NCBI RefSeq assembly: GCF_003671715.1
Contig: NZ_RAIF01000006.1
Span: 461,868-499,479 of the forward strand
DNA: 37,612 nucleotides
DNA from: Streptomyces sp. E2N166
GTDB taxonomy: Bacteria > Actinomycetota > Actinomycetes > Streptomycetales > Streptomycetaceae
Direction of reading: 5' to 3'
Shown here: piece after piece, positions 18,934 through 25,591 of the stretch
How positions within the stretch are numbered: position 1 is the stretch's first letter
How the letters are laid out: the number at the start of each line of letters is the position of its first letter
Translations under genes and position numbers: made by a program
The notes under the pieces: generated by a model
The model's database searches: none
What the model was told of the DNA's origin: nothing
The model's input: the letters and a program-made list of their open reading frames with translations, nothing else

Positions 18934-18964
18934 TGCATGACGTGCATCTTTGCATACCATGCAA
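18934..18964. promoter_or_regulatory. two tandem operator-like palindromes before TetR gene
   Basis: Two similar symmetric sites lie side by side. One (18934-18946) has TGCA arms with a near-perfect centre, and the other (18950-18964) is TTGCAT/ATGCAA around ACC. Their centres are 17 bp apart. The second ends three bases before the ATG at 18968, so binding there would block transcription start or elongation. Autoregulation by the adjacent TetR protein is likely. Confidence 0.65.
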
Positions 18965-18967
18965 CTT

Positions 18968-19636
18968 ATGTCGGAGAAGAGTGCCGCGGGAGGCGGTCTG
19001 CGGGAGCGGAAGAAGCGGGCCACGCGTGCCGCCCTCACCGAGGCCGCGGTACGCCTCGCCGCCGAACACGGAGCGGAGAAGGTCACCGTCGAGGCGATCA
19101 GCGCCGCGGCCGGCGTGTCGGTGCGAACCTTCTTCAACTACTTCGACACCCGCGACGACGCCTTCGTCGTCATCGACGCCGACGCGGGCGTACGCCTGCG
19201 GCACGCCGTAATCGACGCACCGGCCGGTCTCTCCCCGCTGGAAGCCCTGCGCGAAGCCATGGCGGCCGAGCTCGCGGAGGCGGAGCAACACCACGAGCTG
19301 TGGCGGCTGCACGCCGAGGTGCTGCATGCCTCACCGCACCTCCTGGCACGCGGCGTCGGGGCGCACATGGCGGCCGAGGCGGACCTGGCGGAAGCCATCG
19401 CCGAACGCCTCCACGGCGCCGGGGGCGGCGATCGCCCCGGTTCCGGGCCCGGAGGAGGCGAGGAACGGCGCGCGGCGCCGGGCCTCTACCCGCGACTGCT
19501 GGCCTCGGTGGCGAACGCCGCGGTGCGGACCAGCATGGACCATTGGTCCGCCCATCAGGAGGACGCCGCCTTCCTCGACGTGTTCCACGAGGTGTTCGCC
19601 CTCCTCGCCGCCGGTCTCCCGGCACCTCCCGCGTAG
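18968..19636 (+). CDS. TetR-family repressor of the adjacent MFS efflux gene
   Basis: A 222-residue TetR protein. The N-terminal HTH is standard: LRERKKRATRAALTEAAVRL, VTVEAISAAAGVSVRTFFNY and FDTRDDAFV. The C-terminal ligand domain is divergent, with a Gly/Pro-rich insert (about residues 155-175). The ATG at 18968 was chosen because the earlier in-frame TTG and ATG lie inside the operator palindromes. There is no clear ribosome-binding site, consistent with a leaderless message. The MFS gene begins 51 bp after the stop on the same strand, the common layout of a self-regulated efflux operon. The inducer is unknown. Confidence 0.88.
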   Translation: MSEKSAAGGGLRERKKRATRAALTEAAVRLAAEHGAEKVTVEAISAAAGVSVRTFFNYFDTRDDAFVVIDADAGVRLRHAVIDAPAGLSPLEALREAMAAELAEAEQHHELWRLHAEVLHASPHLLARGVGAHMAAEADLAEAIAERLHGAGGGDRPGSGPGGGEERRAAPGLYPRLLASVANAAVRTSMDHWSAHQEDAAFLDVFHEVFALLAAGLPAPPA

Positions 19637-19687
19637 CCTCCGCGCCGGACTCGCGCGACCTATCAGACCACCACCGAAAGAGATGCT

Positions 19688-21304
19688 GTGACCGCATCCC
19701 AGGCGCCCGCCGACGCGCCTTCCACCTCCATGACCCCACGTCAGATACTCCAGGCCATGTCCGGCCTGATGGCCGGCATGTTCGTCGCCATCCTGGCCGG
19801 CACCGTCGTCTCCAACGCGCTGCCCACGATCATCGCCGACCTGGGTGCCAGCCAGTCCTCCTACACCTGGGTCGTCACCTCCGAACTGCTGGCGATGACC
19901 GCGACGGTGCCCCTGTGGGGCAAGCTGTCCGACCTCTTCAACAAGAAGCTCCTGCTGCAGCTCTCGCTGGCCATGTTCGTGGTCGGCTCGCTGCTGGCCG
20001 GCTTCTCCCACGGTGTGGGGCTGCTGATCTTCAGCCGCGTCGTGCAGGGCATCGGCGCGGGCGGTCTGACCGCCCTCGCGCAGGTCGTGATGGCCTCCGT
20101 CATCCCGCCCCGCCAACTGGGCAAGTACGCCGGCATCTTCGGTGCCGTCTTCGCCGTGGGCACCGTGGCCGGTCCGCTGATCGGCGGTGTCCTGGTGGAC
20201 ACCTCGTGGCTGGGCTGGCGCTGGTGCTTCTTCATCGGCGTGCCGTTCGCGCTGCTCGCCATCGCGCTGCTGCAGCGCACGCTGCGGCTGCCCACCGTGT
20301 CGCGCAAGGTGCGCATCGACTGGCTCGGCGCCTTCCTGATCGTCGCCGGTGTCTGCGCGCTGCTCATCTGGGTGTCGCTGGCCGGCAACGAGTTCGACTG
20401 GGCGTCCTGGCAGACCGGTGCGCTCGCCGGCGGTGGCGTGCTGCTGCTGGTCGCCGCGGTCATCGTCGAAGGCCGCACTCCCGAGCCGGTCATCCCGCTC
20501 GGCATCTTCCGCAACCGCACGGTCACGCTGACCACCGTCGCCAGCCTCCTGGTCGGTGTCGCCATGTTCGGCGGAACCGTCTTCCTCTCGCAGTACTTCC
20601 AGGTCTCCCTGGGCAAGTCACCGACCGTCGCGGGTCTGATGAGCCTGCCCATGATCCTCGGCCTGCTGGTGTCGTCCACCGTCGCCGGGCAGGTGATCAG
20701 CCGGACCGGCAAGTGGAAGCGGTACCTGGTGGCGGGCGCGGCCCTCATGGCCGTCGGCCTCGCGCTGCTCGCCACCATCGACGCCCAGACGCACTTCGGT
20801 CTGCTCAGCCTCTACATGGCGATCCTCGGCGTCGGCGTCGGCATGCTGATGCAGAATCTGGTGCTGGCCGCGCAGAACGACGTGCCCGCCGCCGACCTGG
20901 GCGCCGCGACCTCCGTACTGTCCTTCTTCCGCAGTATGGGCGGCACCATCGGCGTCAGCGTCCTCGGCGCGATCCTCGCCAACCGGGTCGCCAGTGAGAT
21001 GACCAAGGGGCTCAGCAGCGCGGGCATCACCGTGCCCGGCGGTGAAGGCTCGGGCGAGGGCAGCGTCCCGGACATGTCCACGCTGCCCGCGCCGATGCGG
21101 TCCGTCGTCGAGCACGCCTACGGTGTCGCCACGGCCGACCTGTTCCTCGTCGCCACGCCGTTCGCGCTGCTGGCGCTGGTCGCCGTCGTGTTCCTGAAGG
21201 AGAAGCCGCTCAAGACCACCAGCGGCATGGAGCGCCTCGCCGAGGAGTCCGGCGAAGCGGCCGCCGTTCCGGCCGAGAAGGGGCCGGCGGCGCCGGTCGG
21301 CTGA
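19688..21304 (+). CDS. DHA2-type 14-TM MFS multidrug exporter
   Basis: A 538-residue drug:proton antiporter of the EmrB/QacA subfamily with about 14 membrane helices. Motif A appears as GKLSDLFNKK after helix 2, the helix-4 region as FSRVVQGIGAGGLTALAQVV, and motif C as GPLIGGVLVDT in helix 5. The cytoplasmic tail is Glu/Ala-rich. The GTG at 19688 has an AAAGAG ribosome-binding site seven bases before it. It is probably cotranscribed with the TetR gene upstream. It exports lipophilic compounds; no biosynthetic cluster is adjacent, so the substrate cannot be inferred. Confidence 0.92.
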   Translation: MTASQAPADAPSTSMTPRQILQAMSGLMAGMFVAILAGTVVSNALPTIIADLGASQSSYTWVVTSELLAMTATVPLWGKLSDLFNKKLLLQLSLAMFVVGSLLAGFSHGVGLLIFSRVVQGIGAGGLTALAQVVMASVIPPRQLGKYAGIFGAVFAVGTVAGPLIGGVLVDTSWLGWRWCFFIGVPFALLAIALLQRTLRLPTVSRKVRIDWLGAFLIVAGVCALLIWVSLAGNEFDWASWQTGALAGGGVLLLVAAVIVEGRTPEPVIPLGIFRNRTVTLTTVASLLVGVAMFGGTVFLSQYFQVSLGKSPTVAGLMSLPMILGLLVSSTVAGQVISRTGKWKRYLVAGAALMAVGLALLATIDAQTHFGLLSLYMAILGVGVGMLMQNLVLAAQNDVPAADLGAATSVLSFFRSMGGTIGVSVLGAILANRVASEMTKGLSSAGITVPGGEGSGEGSVPDMSTLPAPMRSVVEHAYGVATADLFLVATPFALLALVAVVFLKEKPLKTTSGMERLAEESGEAAAVPAEKGPAAPVG

Positions 21305-21513
21305 CCGCCGGCGGGCAGGGTGCGCACCATGACCTGTTGCGGGCCGGCGCCCGCGTACTGGGCCGCCCACACGGTCCGGGTGCTGGTCGGGCCGGCGACG
21401 CCGAAGACCTGGTTGTACTGGGTGGCGATGCCGAGAACGGCGACGGCCGGGTAGATGCCGGTGGCGATCCGAGGGGCCGGGCGCGTCGGGTCAAGGCTTT
21501 GGGCCAAGGAGAG

Positions 21514-21556
21514 CGCCGCACGGGCGGCGGGAGGACGTCCCGCCGCCCGTGCGGCG
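21514..21556. terminator. strong bidirectional hairpin terminator
   Basis: Two 19-nt arms (21514-21532 and 21538-21556) are perfect complements with a 5-nt loop; they begin CGCCGCACGG and end CCGTGCGGCG. The hairpin sits 16 nt past the stop of the minus-strand chimeric GNAT frame and about 210 bp past the MFS stop. There is no T-run, as is usual in Streptomyces. Confidence 0.8.
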
Positions 21557-21572
21557 TGGTGGGTCCGGTGCC

Positions 21573-22181
21573 TCAGATGCCGAACGGTGCCGCGTAGCGG
21601 ACGGTGCCGGCGGGCAGCGGGTGGGCGGCATCCAGGGTGAGGACCATGAGGGCCTCGTCCGGGACGTCGATGGTCAGGCCGATGCCGTGGGCGGAGGCCC
21701 GGCCGAAGCCGAACCGCGGGTAGTACTCCGGGTGTCCGAGGACGACGACATGGTGCTCGCCCAGACGCCCGGCCGCGGCGAGCGCCGCCCGGACGGCCGC
21801 CGCGCCGGCGCCGCCCTTCTGCTGATCGGGCCGGACGGCTACGGGCGCCAGGCGGGTTCGGGTCATGACGGAGTGAGGATCCGTTTCCGGGTTGCGTTCG
21901 ACTGGGTCAGGCCATGGCCCGGGACGCGAGAAAGACCCGGGCGCCGCGCGGAGCGGCTCGGTCTTGTCGCCCTCGTTCATCAGCCAGACGTAGGCCGGCA
22001 CGTCGTCACCGGGCTGCCACGGGTCTCCCTCGGGCTCCGCCACGTGGGCGTAGCGGATCAGGACGGGGCCGACGCTCGCGTTCTGGCCGGGCGCGTGCCA
22101 GTCCCGTGGTCCCAAACCGTCGTCCCCGCCGCAGCCACTCAGCGAAAGAGCCGTCGCGGCGCTGGCGAGTGACCGCGTCTG
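21573..22181 (-). pseudogene. chimera of a truncated lipoprotein and a truncated GNAT
   Basis: One open minus-strand frame joins two unrelated pieces. The 5' part (about 22181-21900) reads a lipoprotein end-of-signal LASAATALSLSGCGGDDG, then GPVLIRYAHVAEPEGDPWQP and DDVPAYVWLMNEGDKTEPLR. This resembles Streptomyces PCu(A)C/DUF461-like copper-chaperone lipoproteins. The 3' part (about 21868-21573) is the C-terminal half of a YhbS-like GNAT: LAPVAVRPDQQKGGAGAAAV, LGHPEYYPRFGFGRA, then AGTVRYAAPFGI. The lipoprotein lacks a start codon, because TAA precedes the signal at 22182-22184. The GNAT lacks its N-terminal half. A deletion joining two minus-strand genes is the simplest cause. An internal ATG (21868) could still start the GNAT half alone. 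Confidence 0.7.
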
Positions 22182-22182
22182 T

Positions 22183-22246
22183 TAAGATCCTCAGCGAACT
22201 GACGCCTTCCCGGGCTCGGACACGTATCCGCCGGGGAGGCTTTTTT
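22183..22246 (+). promoter_or_regulatory. promoter-like box and terminator hairpin: attenuator or small RNA
   Basis: A TAAGAT -10-like box (22183-22188) is followed by a stem whose outer arms GCCTTCCCGG and CCGGGGAGGC (22204-22213, 22231-22240) enclose an inner CGGA/TCCG stem, then six T residues (22241-22246). An intrinsic terminator with a real T-run is unusual in this window. No complete plus-strand gene lies upstream, so the hairpin should act on a leader transcript of the GNAT gene at 22291, or end a roughly 55-nt RNA. The -35 is weak. The regulated signal is unknown. Confidence 0.55.
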
Positions 22247-22290
22247 CATGCCCTGGAGGGCCAGTCGATCAGTCCCCGCGAAGGAGTCCC

Positions 22291-22790
22291 ATGTCAGTCG
22301 TTGTGCGCCCCGCGACCGCTGCCGACCGTCCGACGGTGGAACGGTTGTGGCTGATGTTCCGCCATGACATGTCGGAGACGGACGGCCGGCTGCCAGGCCC
22401 GGACGGAACCTTCCGCGCCGATCGGCTCCGGGCGGCCTTCACCGACGCCGACTGGGCGCCGTACCTGTTGTCGAGTGGGAACCGCCCCGCCGGTTTCGCG
22501 TTCGTGCGCAACCTGACCGCCGCGTACTGAACAGCTTCTTCGTCGTCCGCGGAGGGCGCAGGAGAGGGATCGGGCTGCGGGCCGTCCAGGAGATCGTGGC
22601 CAGGCACCCGGGGCGGTGGGAAGTCGCCTTCCAGGACGCCAACCAGGCCGCGGTTCGCTTCTGGCGCCACGTAGCCGCCGAGATCGCGGGCGAGGCATGG
22701 GCCGAGGAGCGCAGGCCGGTACCCCATCGTCCGGACCTGCCACCGGACGTCTGGATCTCCTTCGGCGTGAACTCTACGGCCACGAGTTGA
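22291..22790 (+). pseudogene. GNAT N-acetyltransferase with one frameshift
   Basis: The first frame (22291 to about 22520) reads VVVRPATAADRPTVERLWLM and ends FAFVRNLTAAY-stop. The conserved remainder continues in another frame: LNSFFVVRGGRRRGIGLRAV, QEIVARHPGRWEVAFQDANQ, FWRHVAAEI and PDLPPDVWISF, ending at 22790. The GRRRGIGLRAV stretch is the acetyl-CoA loop. Restoring one C near 22519-22522 (ACC-GCC-CGC-GTA-CTG) would rejoin the frames into a normal GNAT of about 166 residues. AAGGAG precedes the ATG, and the terminator-like leader at 22204-22246 lies upstream. Either a recent pseudogene or a sequencing error. Confidence 0.78.
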
Positions 22791-22820
22791 GCCGGCCGGC
22801 CGACCGGCCGTAGCCCGGGC

Positions 22821-24056
22821 TCACAGGAACCGGCGGATGGGCCGGACGGCGACCTCACGCACCCGCTGGACGGCGGAGCGTCTCTTCCACCGGCCCGCCC
22901 TGATCAGGGTGCTGGCCGCGATGTCCGCCTCGAAGTGATCGTCCAGTGTCGCGGTGAACTCCGGGTTCAGCACGGCCAGCATGACCTCCTCGTCGTGGTC
23001 GAGAGAGCGGCGGTTGAAGTTGGTCGAGCCGATCAGGGCGGCGACGCCGTCCACGGTGATGACTTTGGCGTGCATCATCGTCGGCTGGTACTGGTAGATC
23101 TTCACCCCGCACGCGGTGAGGTCCTCGTAGTAGTGCTGCCCGGCCAACTGGCAGACCCGTTTGTCGGTGTGCGGCCCGGGCAGCACGATCTCCACCTCGA
23201 CCCCGCGGCGAGCGGTGGCGCACAGCAGCTCGACGAAGTACTCGTCCGGTGAGAAGTACGCGGTGGCCAGGCGGACGCGTTCCTCGGCCGACTCCAGCAT
23301 CACGCGGATCAGGGTCTGCATGTCCTGCCAGCCGAAGCTCGCCGAACCGCGCACCACCTGAACGATCGCGTCGCCCTGGCGCGGGTGCGTGACGAACCGG
23401 TCCCGGTCGTCGAAGAGTTCGTCGTGGCACTCCGCCCAGTTCTGCGCGAAGGCCGCGGCGACGCCGTCCACCGCGGGGCCCCGGACCTCGACGTGGGTGT
23501 CACGCCACTCGTTCGGGTTGCGCGCGTCACCGCACCACTCCTCGGCGATCCCCACCCCGCCGGTGAAGGCGGTCTCCTCGTCGACGACGAGGACCTTGCG
23601 GTGACAGCGGTGGTTCTGCTTGAGCGGCGACAGGTACAGCGGCTTGCGGAACCACGCCACCTGCACCCCCGCCCGCTCCATCGTCCGCAGCTGCTCGGCC
23701 TCGATCAGCCTGCTGCCGAACCCGTCCAGCAGCAGCCGGACCCGAACCCCGGCACGGGCCCGCTCCGCGAGGGCCTCGGCGAAGCGGCGGGCGATGTCGC
23801 CCTTCCAGTACACGAACGTCATCATGTCCACCGTGTGCTCGGCACGGCGGATACCGGCCAGCATCGCGGCGAAGATCTCGTCCCCGTTGCGCAGGACGGT
23901 GAGCGCGTTGCCCTCGGTGGCCGCGATCCCGATCAGCCGCTCCAGACGCCGCCGTATCGGCGTGACGCGGGCGTCGACCGAGGCAGTGGCGGCGCCCGTC
24001 CCCGGCGCCTTCGGGGCCGGCGGAGTCAGTCCGGGCGGTTCCTGCGTGCTGGTCAT
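22821..24056 (-). CDS. phospholipase D-like cardiolipin synthase family protein
   Basis: A 411-residue PLD-superfamily protein with two HKD motifs: HRKVLVVD starting at His152 and HAKVITVD starting at His329, each followed by the usual GG/GSTNFNRRS segment. The layout (DMMTFVYWKGDIARRFAEAL, RVRLLLDGFGS, RVRLATAYFSPDEYFVELL) matches bacterial cardiolipin synthases and related phosphatidyltransferases. These join two phosphatidylglycerols or swap head groups at the membrane. No transmembrane helix is visible at the N-terminus, unlike classical Cls. The ATG at 24056 has an AGGGA element five bases upstream. It is transcribed alone, convergent with the GNAT pseudogene. Confidence 0.88.
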   Translation of the reverse strand: MTSTQEPPGLTPPAPKAPGTGAATASVDARVTPIRRRLERLIGIAATEGNALTVLRNGDEIFAAMLAGIRRAEHTVDMMTFVYWKGDIARRFAEALAERARAGVRVRLLLDGFGSRLIEAEQLRTMERAGVQVAWFRKPLYLSPLKQNHRCHRKVLVVDEETAFTGGVGIAEEWCGDARNPNEWRDTHVEVRGPAVDGVAAAFAQNWAECHDELFDDRDRFVTHPRQGDAIVQVVRGSASFGWQDMQTLIRVMLESAEERVRLATAYFSPDEYFVELLCATARRGVEVEIVLPGPHTDKRVCQLAGQHYYEDLTACGVKIYQYQPTMMHAKVITVDGVAALIGSTNFNRRSLDHDEEVMLAVLNPEFTATLDDHFEADIAASTLIRAGRWKRRSAVQRVREVAVRPIRRFL

Positions 24057-24307
24057 GGCATTCCCTGGCCGGATCACGACGAGGAAACATCGGGCCGCGG
24101 CGCCCGGTCCGGCACGGGCTGAGCGGCGAGCCGACTGTACCTCCGGCCACCGGGCCCGCGCGGACCTGCCCACTCGCCCGGGCGCCTGGGCGGGGCGGCC
24201 GGCATGCCGGCCGGCCCGGCGCCCGTCGGACGCCGCCGGCCGCTGCTCCACCCCGGCCCGGTGATGCTTCTTGCGGCCGGTGGGTGCCGGACGGCAGGCT
24301 TCGGGGT

Positions 24308-24760
24308 GTGGCCACTTTGCTTATCGTGCATCACACGCCGTCGCCGAACTGCCAGGCGATGCTGGAAGCCGTCGTGTCCGGGGCGACCGCGCCGGAGATC
24401 GAGGGGGTGCGGGTGGTCCGGCGCGCGGCGCTGGCGGCCACCGCCGTCGACGTGCTGGAGGCCGACGGATACCTGCTGGGCACCCCGGCGAACCTCGGCT
24501 ACATGTCCGGGGCTCTGAAGCACTTCTTCGACCAGGTCTACTACCCCTGCCTGGACCAGACCCGGGGCCGGCCCTTCGGCTACTACGTGCACGGCGGCAG
24601 CGACACCACCGGCGCGGTGCGCGCCGTCGAGTCGGTCACGACGGGGCTCGCCTGGCAGCGCGCGGCGCCGGTGGTGAGCGTGGCCGGCGGGCCCGGCAAG
24701 GCCGATCTGGAGGCCTGCTGGGAACTGGGGGCCACGCTCGCCGCCGGGCTGATGGACTGA
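24308..24760 (+). CDS. flavodoxin-like/NAD(P)H-dependent FMN reductase family protein
   Basis: A 150-residue flavodoxin-fold protein. TLLIVHHTPSPNCQAMLEAV gives the phosphate-binding first loop, GYLLGTPANLGYMSGALKHFFDQ gives the second FMN-contacting loop, and FGYYVHGGSDTTGAVRAVES the third. Such proteins bind FMN and move electrons to unknown acceptors. The GTG at 24308 is chosen because Streptomyces relatives begin at this point; the ATG-less extension to 24284 is unlikely. The ribosome-binding site is weak. It is divergent from the PLD gene. Confidence 0.78.
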   Translation: MATLLIVHHTPSPNCQAMLEAVVSGATAPEIEGVRVVRRAALAATAVDVLEADGYLLGTPANLGYMSGALKHFFDQVYYPCLDQTRGRPFGYYVHGGSDTTGAVRAVESVTTGLAWQRAAPVVSVAGGPGKADLEACWELGATLAAGLMD

Positions 24761-24965
24761 CCGGCGCGGATCGGAGCGGGTCGATGGCCCCGGACGCGGG
24801 GAGGCGGGCCGGGGCTCGTCAGCCCGGTTCCAGTGACTTCACCCACTCGGGCCGTCGCTCGCGTTACTCCAGCCACGCGGCCTTTCTCGGCCGGCGGTCG
24901 TTCTCCGCCACGCCGACGGGCCGGGGCCGGCCGTCTGCCTGACCGTCCCCGGTGCCGCCCGCCCG

Positions 24966-25591
24966 TCAGCTCTTGGGCATCAGGACGGTGTCGATGATGT
25001 ACCCGTTGGCGTTGGCGGTCCTGACGTTGCCGCAGGCGACCTTGGCCGAGTCGTTGACCGTGTAGGACTCGTCCGAGCCGGACGTGGTCAGCTTGGACTT
25101 CTGCAGCGTCTCGAAGGAGCCGTTCTCCAGGTCAGTGTGGGAGCAAGCTTCCGGCCCACGACGTGGTAGGTCAGGATGTCGGTGAGCATCGCCTTGTCGT
25201 CGAGGACCTTGTCCAGGTCGGCCTTCGGGATCTTCGCGAAGGCGTCGTTGGTCGGCGCGAACACCGTGATGTTCTCGGCGCTGTTCAGCGTGTCGACCAG
25301 GCCGGCCTTCTTCACCGCCGTGACCAGCGTGGACAGCGCCGGGTTGTTCGAGGCGGCGGTGGCCACCGGGTCCTTGGCCATGCCGTCGAAGGAACCGGCA
25401 CCGTCCTTCGGCACCGACGAACACGCCGGACCGAACGGCTCGACCGTGCCGGCCATGTCGCCGCCGGTGCCGGCGGACTGGTCTTCGCCGGCCGAGGAGG
25501 CCGCGGGGGCCGAGGAGGCCGCCTGGGCGGAGTCCGGCGAGTCGCCGCCGCCGCCGTCGGAGCAGGCGACCAGGGCCAGGGGAAAAGGCGC
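24966..25591 (-). pseudogene. fasciclin (FAS1) lipoprotein, 5'-truncated and frameshifted
   Basis: The first segment reads PLALVACSDGGGGDSPDSAQ (lipobox LVAC), an Ser/Ala-rich spacer, FGPACSSVPKDGAGSFDGMA and the FAS1 core ALSTLVTAVKKAGLVDTLNS, ENITVFAPTNDAFAKIPKAD, LTDILTYHVVGRKLAP. The rest lies in another frame: DLENGSFETLQKSKLTTSGS and ANGYIIDTVLMPKS. The shift coincides with a doubled AC dinucleotide (GTGT on the plus strand at 25135-25138), a +2 insertion. The start is also missing: the signal peptide begins right after, and in frame with, the TGA of the M56 gene (25592-25594). Intact relatives are secreted adhesion-type lipoproteins of about 220 residues. Confidence 0.85.

Follow-up and report, generated by a model that had tools for sequence, protein, structure and literature searches.

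The 37.6-kb window (the whole stretch of DNA that was analyzed; 72% G+C) carries a GNAT acetyltransferase gene on the plus strand at 22291-22791, assigned from profile matches and translations, whose reading frame shifts near codons 78-80. The first frame stops at 22528-22530 and coding continues in another frame as far as 22791, with two profile matches in different frames (profile positions 2-79 and 78-163). Either the gene is broken or the sequence contains an error; intact copies are present in many relatives. The earlier note had not noticed this break. Both GNATs tested in a family search belonged to PF00583. The structural model showed the general GNAT fold (pLDDT 86.6), with identities of 9-18% among the 50 PDB matches listed, and a profile search of PDB sequences returned just two weak matches (AAC(3)-XI, E = 0.005; a GNAT, E = 0.007). 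At such identities, and with profile matches so weak, no substrate could reasonably be named from either.

On the upstream side, 18950-21304 of the plus strand has the usual regulator-pump layout, a TetR regulator and then an MFS gene. An open reading frame on the minus strand (21573-22180) is, by eye, lipoprotein-like in its first part (LSGC, without a start codon) and GNAT-like in its later part; 180 of its residues gave no match in Pfam, and it likely consists of fused remnants.

The interval between these genes holds a compact cassette (22180-22250, plus strand). It begins with the extended -10 promoter element TGTTAAGAT (22180-22188), composed of the hexamer TAAGAT (22183-22188) and the upstream TG (22180-22181). 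No -35 element was visible here or in the logo of 73 GNAT leaders. A start at about 7 nt past the hexamer would give the transcript a 5′ tail of approximately 9 nt (22195-22203) that contains no leader ORF. The stem begins 15 nt past the hexamer, with a compound terminator hairpin of 14 pairs (22204-22240), 10 in the outer arms (22204-22213 and 22231-22240) and 4 in the inner stem (22217-22220 and 22227-22230). Its predicted energy was -24.9 kcal/mol, against a mean of -15.9 for shuffled sequences (z = -3.40; 1 of 200 shuffles equally good). The whole interval 22183-22290 as a single fold was less striking (z = -1.93; 7 of 200 shuffles equally good). Six T residues follow (22241-22246). Neither strand of the window has another tract of at least five T, and the GC-rich hairpin directly abutting the T6 has, by sequence and folding, the layout of an intrinsic (Rho-independent) terminator. 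The earlier note had described this box, stem and T run ahead of the GNAT start with no upstream plus-strand gene. The box, stem and T run were confirmed; the nearest plus-strand gene identified upstream was the MFS gene that ends at 21304. A simple terminator scan of 20000-25000 listed one terminator other than the module, against 1.4 expected from shuffles and thus without excess. The module was presumably missed because the scan rule accepts just a continuous stem closed by a loop of 3-8.

The end of the hairpin and its downstream flank read GGAGGC-T6-CATG. The 3′ arm contains a Shine-Dalgarno-like GGAGG (22235-22239), predicted to be paired, and an ATG lies at Shine-Dalgarno spacing past the T tract (22248-22250); its frame differs from that of the GNAT gene, which starts at 22291. 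The GNAT start has a separate Shine-Dalgarno sequence, AAGGAG (22281-22286), and similar separate sites were found in other leaders whose gene starts farther off. The string CATGCC(C/T)NGG past the T tract (22248-22260 in the window) recurs in GNAT and reductase leaders whose gene starts elsewhere. The ORFs that begin at its ATG in GNAT leaders were not coding-like.

Conservation of the leader upstream of GNAT genes

GNAT loci were taken from a DNA search (61 genomes), a profile search (295 genomes; matches in 52 of them, at least 30 loci) and a named-contig scan (80 of 196 confirmed loci used), and together they formed a set of 108 distinct upstream regions. A terminator-like hairpin was present within 400 nt upstream in 86 of the 108. 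With a strict cut-off that we chose (score ≥11.5 within 300 nt), terminators were found in 73 of the 108 GNAT loci. None of the 44 control loci, which belong to more distant homologues (reductases below 73% identity, 25 loci; MFS at 45-49%, 19 loci), had one; weaker candidates (score 7.5-10.5) were present in nine of these controls. At least 15 of the 35 GNAT loci below the strict cut-off show the motif by pattern or by reading, and it was not seen in the remainder. Six of 11 close MFS orthologues passed the same cut-off; the other five scored 11 or less, and the motif was present in all five (L194 as L143/L160). Among the reductases, 7 of 34 rows passed, with two duplicates among the rows (L132 = L214, L164 = L218).

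The promoter element was conserved at a nearly fixed distance from the stem. For this analysis 79 of the 86 terminator-bearing loci were used, seven hairpins having been judged misplaced or not the module. TANNNT began 15-28 nt upstream of the stem CCT in 72 of these 79 leaders, compared with 1.1% when positions were drawn at random from those loci. In the logo (73 leaders, best hexamer starting with T), 97% had G at -2 and 60% had T at -3. The gap between hexamer and stem was 15-17 nt in 55 of 78 GNAT leaders; in 61 modules of three gene families, chosen by a pattern that itself restricts this gap, it peaked at 10 and 16. Given the usual start 7 nt past the hexamer, the RNA should begin a few to approximately 10 bases upstream of the stem.

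An alignment was made of 76 of the 86 loci (ten hairpins judged misplaced or not the module). Among the leaders the base of the stem was conserved in sequence, and the 5′ tail and loop were not. The aligned relatives likewise had a T tract next to the stem, though some of these tracts were interrupted or reduced in length. The earlier note had named lack of conservation of the stem in relatives as a refutation; on being checked, the stem proved conserved. By reading, a peroxiredoxin-like gene lies downstream of the GNAT gene in three of the loci (L022, L024, L033), in two of which (L024, L033) an RdgB-like gene lies upstream.

Pairing within the hairpin and the Shine-Dalgarno sequence

The arms paired more often than shuffled arms did. 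Three of the 76 aligned leaders had no arms; the other 73 gave 45 distinct arm pairs, in which 89.1% of cells pair (mean of 1000 shuffles 83.1%, maximum 86.7%). An alignment of 47 sequences from the three families showed 92.3% of cells pairing (shuffled mean 84.4), 29 cells with two-sided change (shuffled 13.2) and a covariation score of 0.267 (shuffled 0.137), and each of these values was reached by none of 500 shuffles, which leave the relatedness of the sequences in place. When partners were slid by one column, pairing fell to 60-75%. Two further measures in the 47-sequence alignment were not above the shuffles, there being hardly any variation in the six outer pairs: pairs with two-sided change numbered 2 (reached by 491 of 500 shuffles) and further pair types 12 (reached by 192 of 500). 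The covariation evidence resides in two inner pairs, formed by columns 34-68 (CG 27, GC 9, UA 4, UG 3, AU 1, other 3) and columns 35-67 (CG 12, GC 12, UG 5, GU 3, other 15). RNAalifold recovered the same helix of 8 pairs from the 76 GNAT leaders, 4 of them with two-sided changes and with a small covariation term (-0.42).

The conserved part of the stem reads GCCUYC/GGAGGC. In column 70 of the 3′ arm, G was kept opposite U in 31 of the 47 module sequences, which fits a constraint on GGAGG itself. An [AG]TG lay within 14 nt of the stem in 66 of the 76 aligned GNAT leaders (the other ten were left out of the start-codon analysis), and in 40 of these 66 it was in frame and is the start of the GNAT gene. 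In the other 26 it was not the GNAT start, and the ORFs beginning there had a G+C content of 69, 68 and 69% at the three codon positions (583 codons), i.e., no codon bias. Twelve MFS proteins were read directly from the ATG past the stem, one of them broken farther on. In the 61 modules, a start codon past the stem was present in 56, a proportion biased upward since CATG was a requirement of the searches that supplied most of the MFS and reductase members.

In the predicted fold of the read-through RNA, GGAGG was paired with a mean probability of 0.98 in 50 leaders with a near start and 0.99 in 29 with a far start. By prediction, then, those 40 GNAT leaders and 12 MFS genes have the layout of an attenuator that sequesters the Shine-Dalgarno sequence, and where the ATG past the stem begins the gene one hairpin should both terminate transcription and hide the ribosome-binding site. 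The GNAT gene of the window, with its separate Shine-Dalgarno sequence, has a different layout, and there the transcriptional lock alone would apply. In two loci (L089, L090) the U tract is broken and the hairpin, Shine-Dalgarno sequence and ATG are retained, and in the 29 far-start leaders the T tract is retained although the gene starts elsewhere. Each output thus appears to have been kept without the other in places, in these few cases.

Recurrence ahead of three gene families

The cassette was found upstream of GNAT, MFS transporter and aldo/keto reductase genes. A search with GGAGGCTTTTTTCATG gave 22 matches in 150 genomes of the genus and none with the reversed string; by translation and homology, 7 lay upstream of GNAT genes, 12 upstream of MFS genes and 3 upstream of reductases. 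Scanning 394 genomes of the class with a looser pattern ending in CATG gave 14 matches, against none for the reversed control; they lay upstream of 6 GNAT, 5 MFS and 3 reductase genes (8 contexts read, the others assigned by cross-identification). A different pattern, without CATG, gave 16 matches in 61 genomes (reversed-pattern control 1), consisting of 6 GNAT, 6 MFS, 1 reductase, 1 orphan (L155 = L257), 1 terminator after a tRNA-like sequence (L158) and 1 unexplained (L167).

A covariance model, R1, was built from the GNAT, MFS and reductase families, so its searches were not blind; the genome samples of these searches and of the pattern scans all overlap. With E ≤ 0.05 it gave 29 matches in 101 Streptomyces genomes, 26 of them upstream of one of the three families (12 GNAT, 9 MFS and 5 reductase, assigned by position against the earlier family loci); the others were 2 orphans and 1 weak match to a tRNA-side terminator (E = 0.035). 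With E ≤ 0.001, 296 genomes of the class gave 10 matches (5 GNAT, 2 MFS, 2 reductase and 1 orphan), of which two, both upstream of GNAT genes, were outside the genus; the search filters lose weak matches above 40 genomes. Of the module proteins, one MFS transporter was placed in PF07690 by a family search, which also gave a match to TIGR00900 (H+ antiporter) that fell well short of the cut-off; one reductase was placed in PF00248. To judge from the family names, the GNAT, MFS and reductase genes would be of the resistance or detoxification type.

Two orphan cassettes, L257 (in G080) and L271 (in G098), have no GNAT, MFS or reductase gene behind them. By reading, L271 has a decayed -10 element and lies ahead of a perfect palindrome and a TetR-like start.

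Proposed attenuation and its alternatives

The terminator lies between the gene and the gene's own promoter, recognized by sequence only, and it is conserved with the gene, as in the layout of a transcription attenuator. The earlier note had proposed such a layout, and the comparative evidence (conserved terminator, fixed promoter spacing, three gene families) backs it. We consider with moderate confidence that the cassette is a promoter-proximal transcription attenuator that is off by default. Conservation, covariation of the inner pairs, fixed promoter spacing, use by three unrelated families and predicted occlusion of the Shine-Dalgarno sequence emerged from the computations; the start site in vivo, termination, regulated read-through and its signal are inferred. 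RNA polymerase would initiate at the extended -10 promoter and make a 5′ tail of a few to approximately 10 bases. The strong hairpin and U tract would be transcribed at once, and most transcripts would end at approximately 50 nt. In relatives with a near start (many GNAT and the MFS genes), RNA that reads through would hold its ribosome-binding site in the same hairpin, a double lock. Genes with their own downstream start, such as that of the window and the reductases, would be subject to the transcriptional lock only. Opening would be brought about by a factor that blocks or melts the hairpin, with neither leader peptide nor aptamer; candidates are an RNA-binding antiterminator, a cold-shock-type or helicase protein, or an altered elongation state of RNA polymerase.

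Several observations count against this reading: the outer pairs show little covariation, 35 of the GNAT loci and five close MFS orthologues fall below the terminator cut-off, weaker candidates are present among the controls, in some leaders a same-strand gene ends close to the stem, and the GNAT gene of the window itself is frame-shifted. Folding of a loose alignment also showed no antiterminator or second conserved structure in the spacer of the 29 far-start leaders. A small hairpin past the T tract was at most weakly favored there (mean z = -0.44, SE 0.19), compared with a mean z of +0.22 (SE 0.16) in the 50 near-start leaders. A broader and more tentative proposal is that a sensor-less double-lock cassette moves among unrelated resistance-type genes of actinomycetes, the hairpin opening once a drug or stress has altered either polymerase elongation or the proteins that melt hairpins, such that the expression machinery itself would be the sensor.

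Alternatively, the cassette may be a constitutive damper that never switches and keeps expression low, without regulation, for genes that could be costly. Apart from the stem, the leaders yielded neither an antiterminator nor a sensor domain nor any conserved binding sequence, in keeping with a damper, but the same unit stands ahead of three unrelated gene families and a weaker promoter would presumably achieve the same effect more cheaply; we hold this reading to be possible, if rather improbable.

We regard it as unlikely that the hairpin is the 3′ terminator of the upstream gene, or an insulator against read-through, with an incidental -10 box. With a rough gene finder based on codon composition, 32 of 79 leaders had as nearest upstream gene one that lies within 400 nt and shares their strand, and in 21 of the 79 a same-strand gene ended within 80 nt of the stem, where ordinary termination is possible. 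However, the nearest gene was on the opposite strand in 15, farther away in 23 and not called in 9, the promoter element keeps its spacing in nearly all of these leaders, and the module tracks the downstream gene families. An equally low probability is given to the terminated RNA acting in trans as a small RNA. A discrete RNA of approximately 50 nt with a 5′ hairpin is the expected product, and the base of its stem is conserved in sequence, whereas the tail and loop, where a seed would be, are not. The short RNA of the earlier note thus survives as the terminated product, and the unconserved parts argue against it as the purpose of the element.

A ligand-binding riboswitch, which like the cassette can stand ahead of several unrelated genes, is very improbable. 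The conserved domain is one hairpin only, with a variable loop and no conserved aptamer separate from the terminator, and Rfam gave no match in the window (gathering scores), in 22050-22420 (E ≤ 1) or in six module loci (gathering scores). The earlier suggestion of a response to a ligand is disfavored by this result and by the lack of room for an aptamer. Least credible is an attenuator driven by ribosome stalling on a leader peptide, also suggested earlier; efflux genes such as mef/mel are under attenuation control (PMC4335068), but stalling in its classical form is not supported here. The short gap between hexamer and stem in most GNAT leaders and the rarity of start codons before the stem (of 61 modules, 2 have ATG and 9 have GTG there) led us to reject a peptide upstream of the stem, and the lack of codon bias in the 26 leaders described above led us to reject one that begins past the T tract.

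The closest published parallel to the attenuator that we favor is the rimP-leader, likewise a short attenuator with little beyond a terminator stem, for which the relevant passages of Naville and Gautheret (2010; PMC2965389) describe a sequence-conserved stem and U tract, mostly without a visible antiterminator. It lies 4-130 nt from the gene and may include the ribosome-binding site, and a termination or antitermination protein was inferred by its authors. In the same passages the rimP-leader stem is GGGc/gCCC, the genes are rimP-nusA-infB and the leader of B. subtilis is 180 nt long, whereas the cassette has the stem given above, precedes GNAT, MFS and aldo/keto reductase genes and would yield an RNA of approximately 50 nt. 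Identity of the two was ruled out by the stem, the downstream genes and the absence of an Rfam match.

Ribosome-mediated attenuation with a translated leader controls vmlR and mef/mel. Passages on vmlR (PMC9226507), bmrC/bmrD (PMC4191407) and mef/mel (PMC4335068) likewise place a regulatory terminator in the leader of a resistance-type gene, and those on vmlR name both transcription and translation attenuation (PMC9226507). The bmrC/bmrD attenuator is described as ribosome-mediated (PMC4191407), whereas the cassette has no room for a leader ORF before the stem. The rifampicin-associated element, compared here by its description in part of PMC12802891, likewise lies in the 5′ UTR, as a palindrome ahead of drug-protection genes of actinobacteria, with a mechanism given as unsolved, but it is 19 bp long, overlaps a promoter and may bind a factor.

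The start-then-stop cassette looks like an undescribed on/off switch. No description of the leader was found in the titles and openings of abstracts searched, mostly outside the subscription literature, or in passages of PMC3765725 and PMC11109978. The cassette may have been overlooked because simple terminator scans look for a single continuous stem. A second reason may be that a Streptomyces 3′-end survey counts from 70 bp: in the sections consulted on Term-seq of S. clavuligerus (PMC8269248), 96 novel premature transcription units in leaders are reported, three of them suggested to be antibiotic-responsive, and premature ends are tallied only at 70 bp or more past the start site, so that a product of approximately 50 nt falls outside the class. 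If the proposed switch is real, three unrelated gene families of resistance or detoxification type in Streptomyces and relatives would share a small portable attenuator that has neither leader peptide nor aptamer. Attenuators that hop between genes were mentioned in passages of Naville and Gautheret (PMC2965389), where it was considered in 2010 that a single terminator hairpin might attenuate transcription and translation jointly, a case then still undemonstrated (PMC2965389). The double-lock leaders would provide ready test cases for it.
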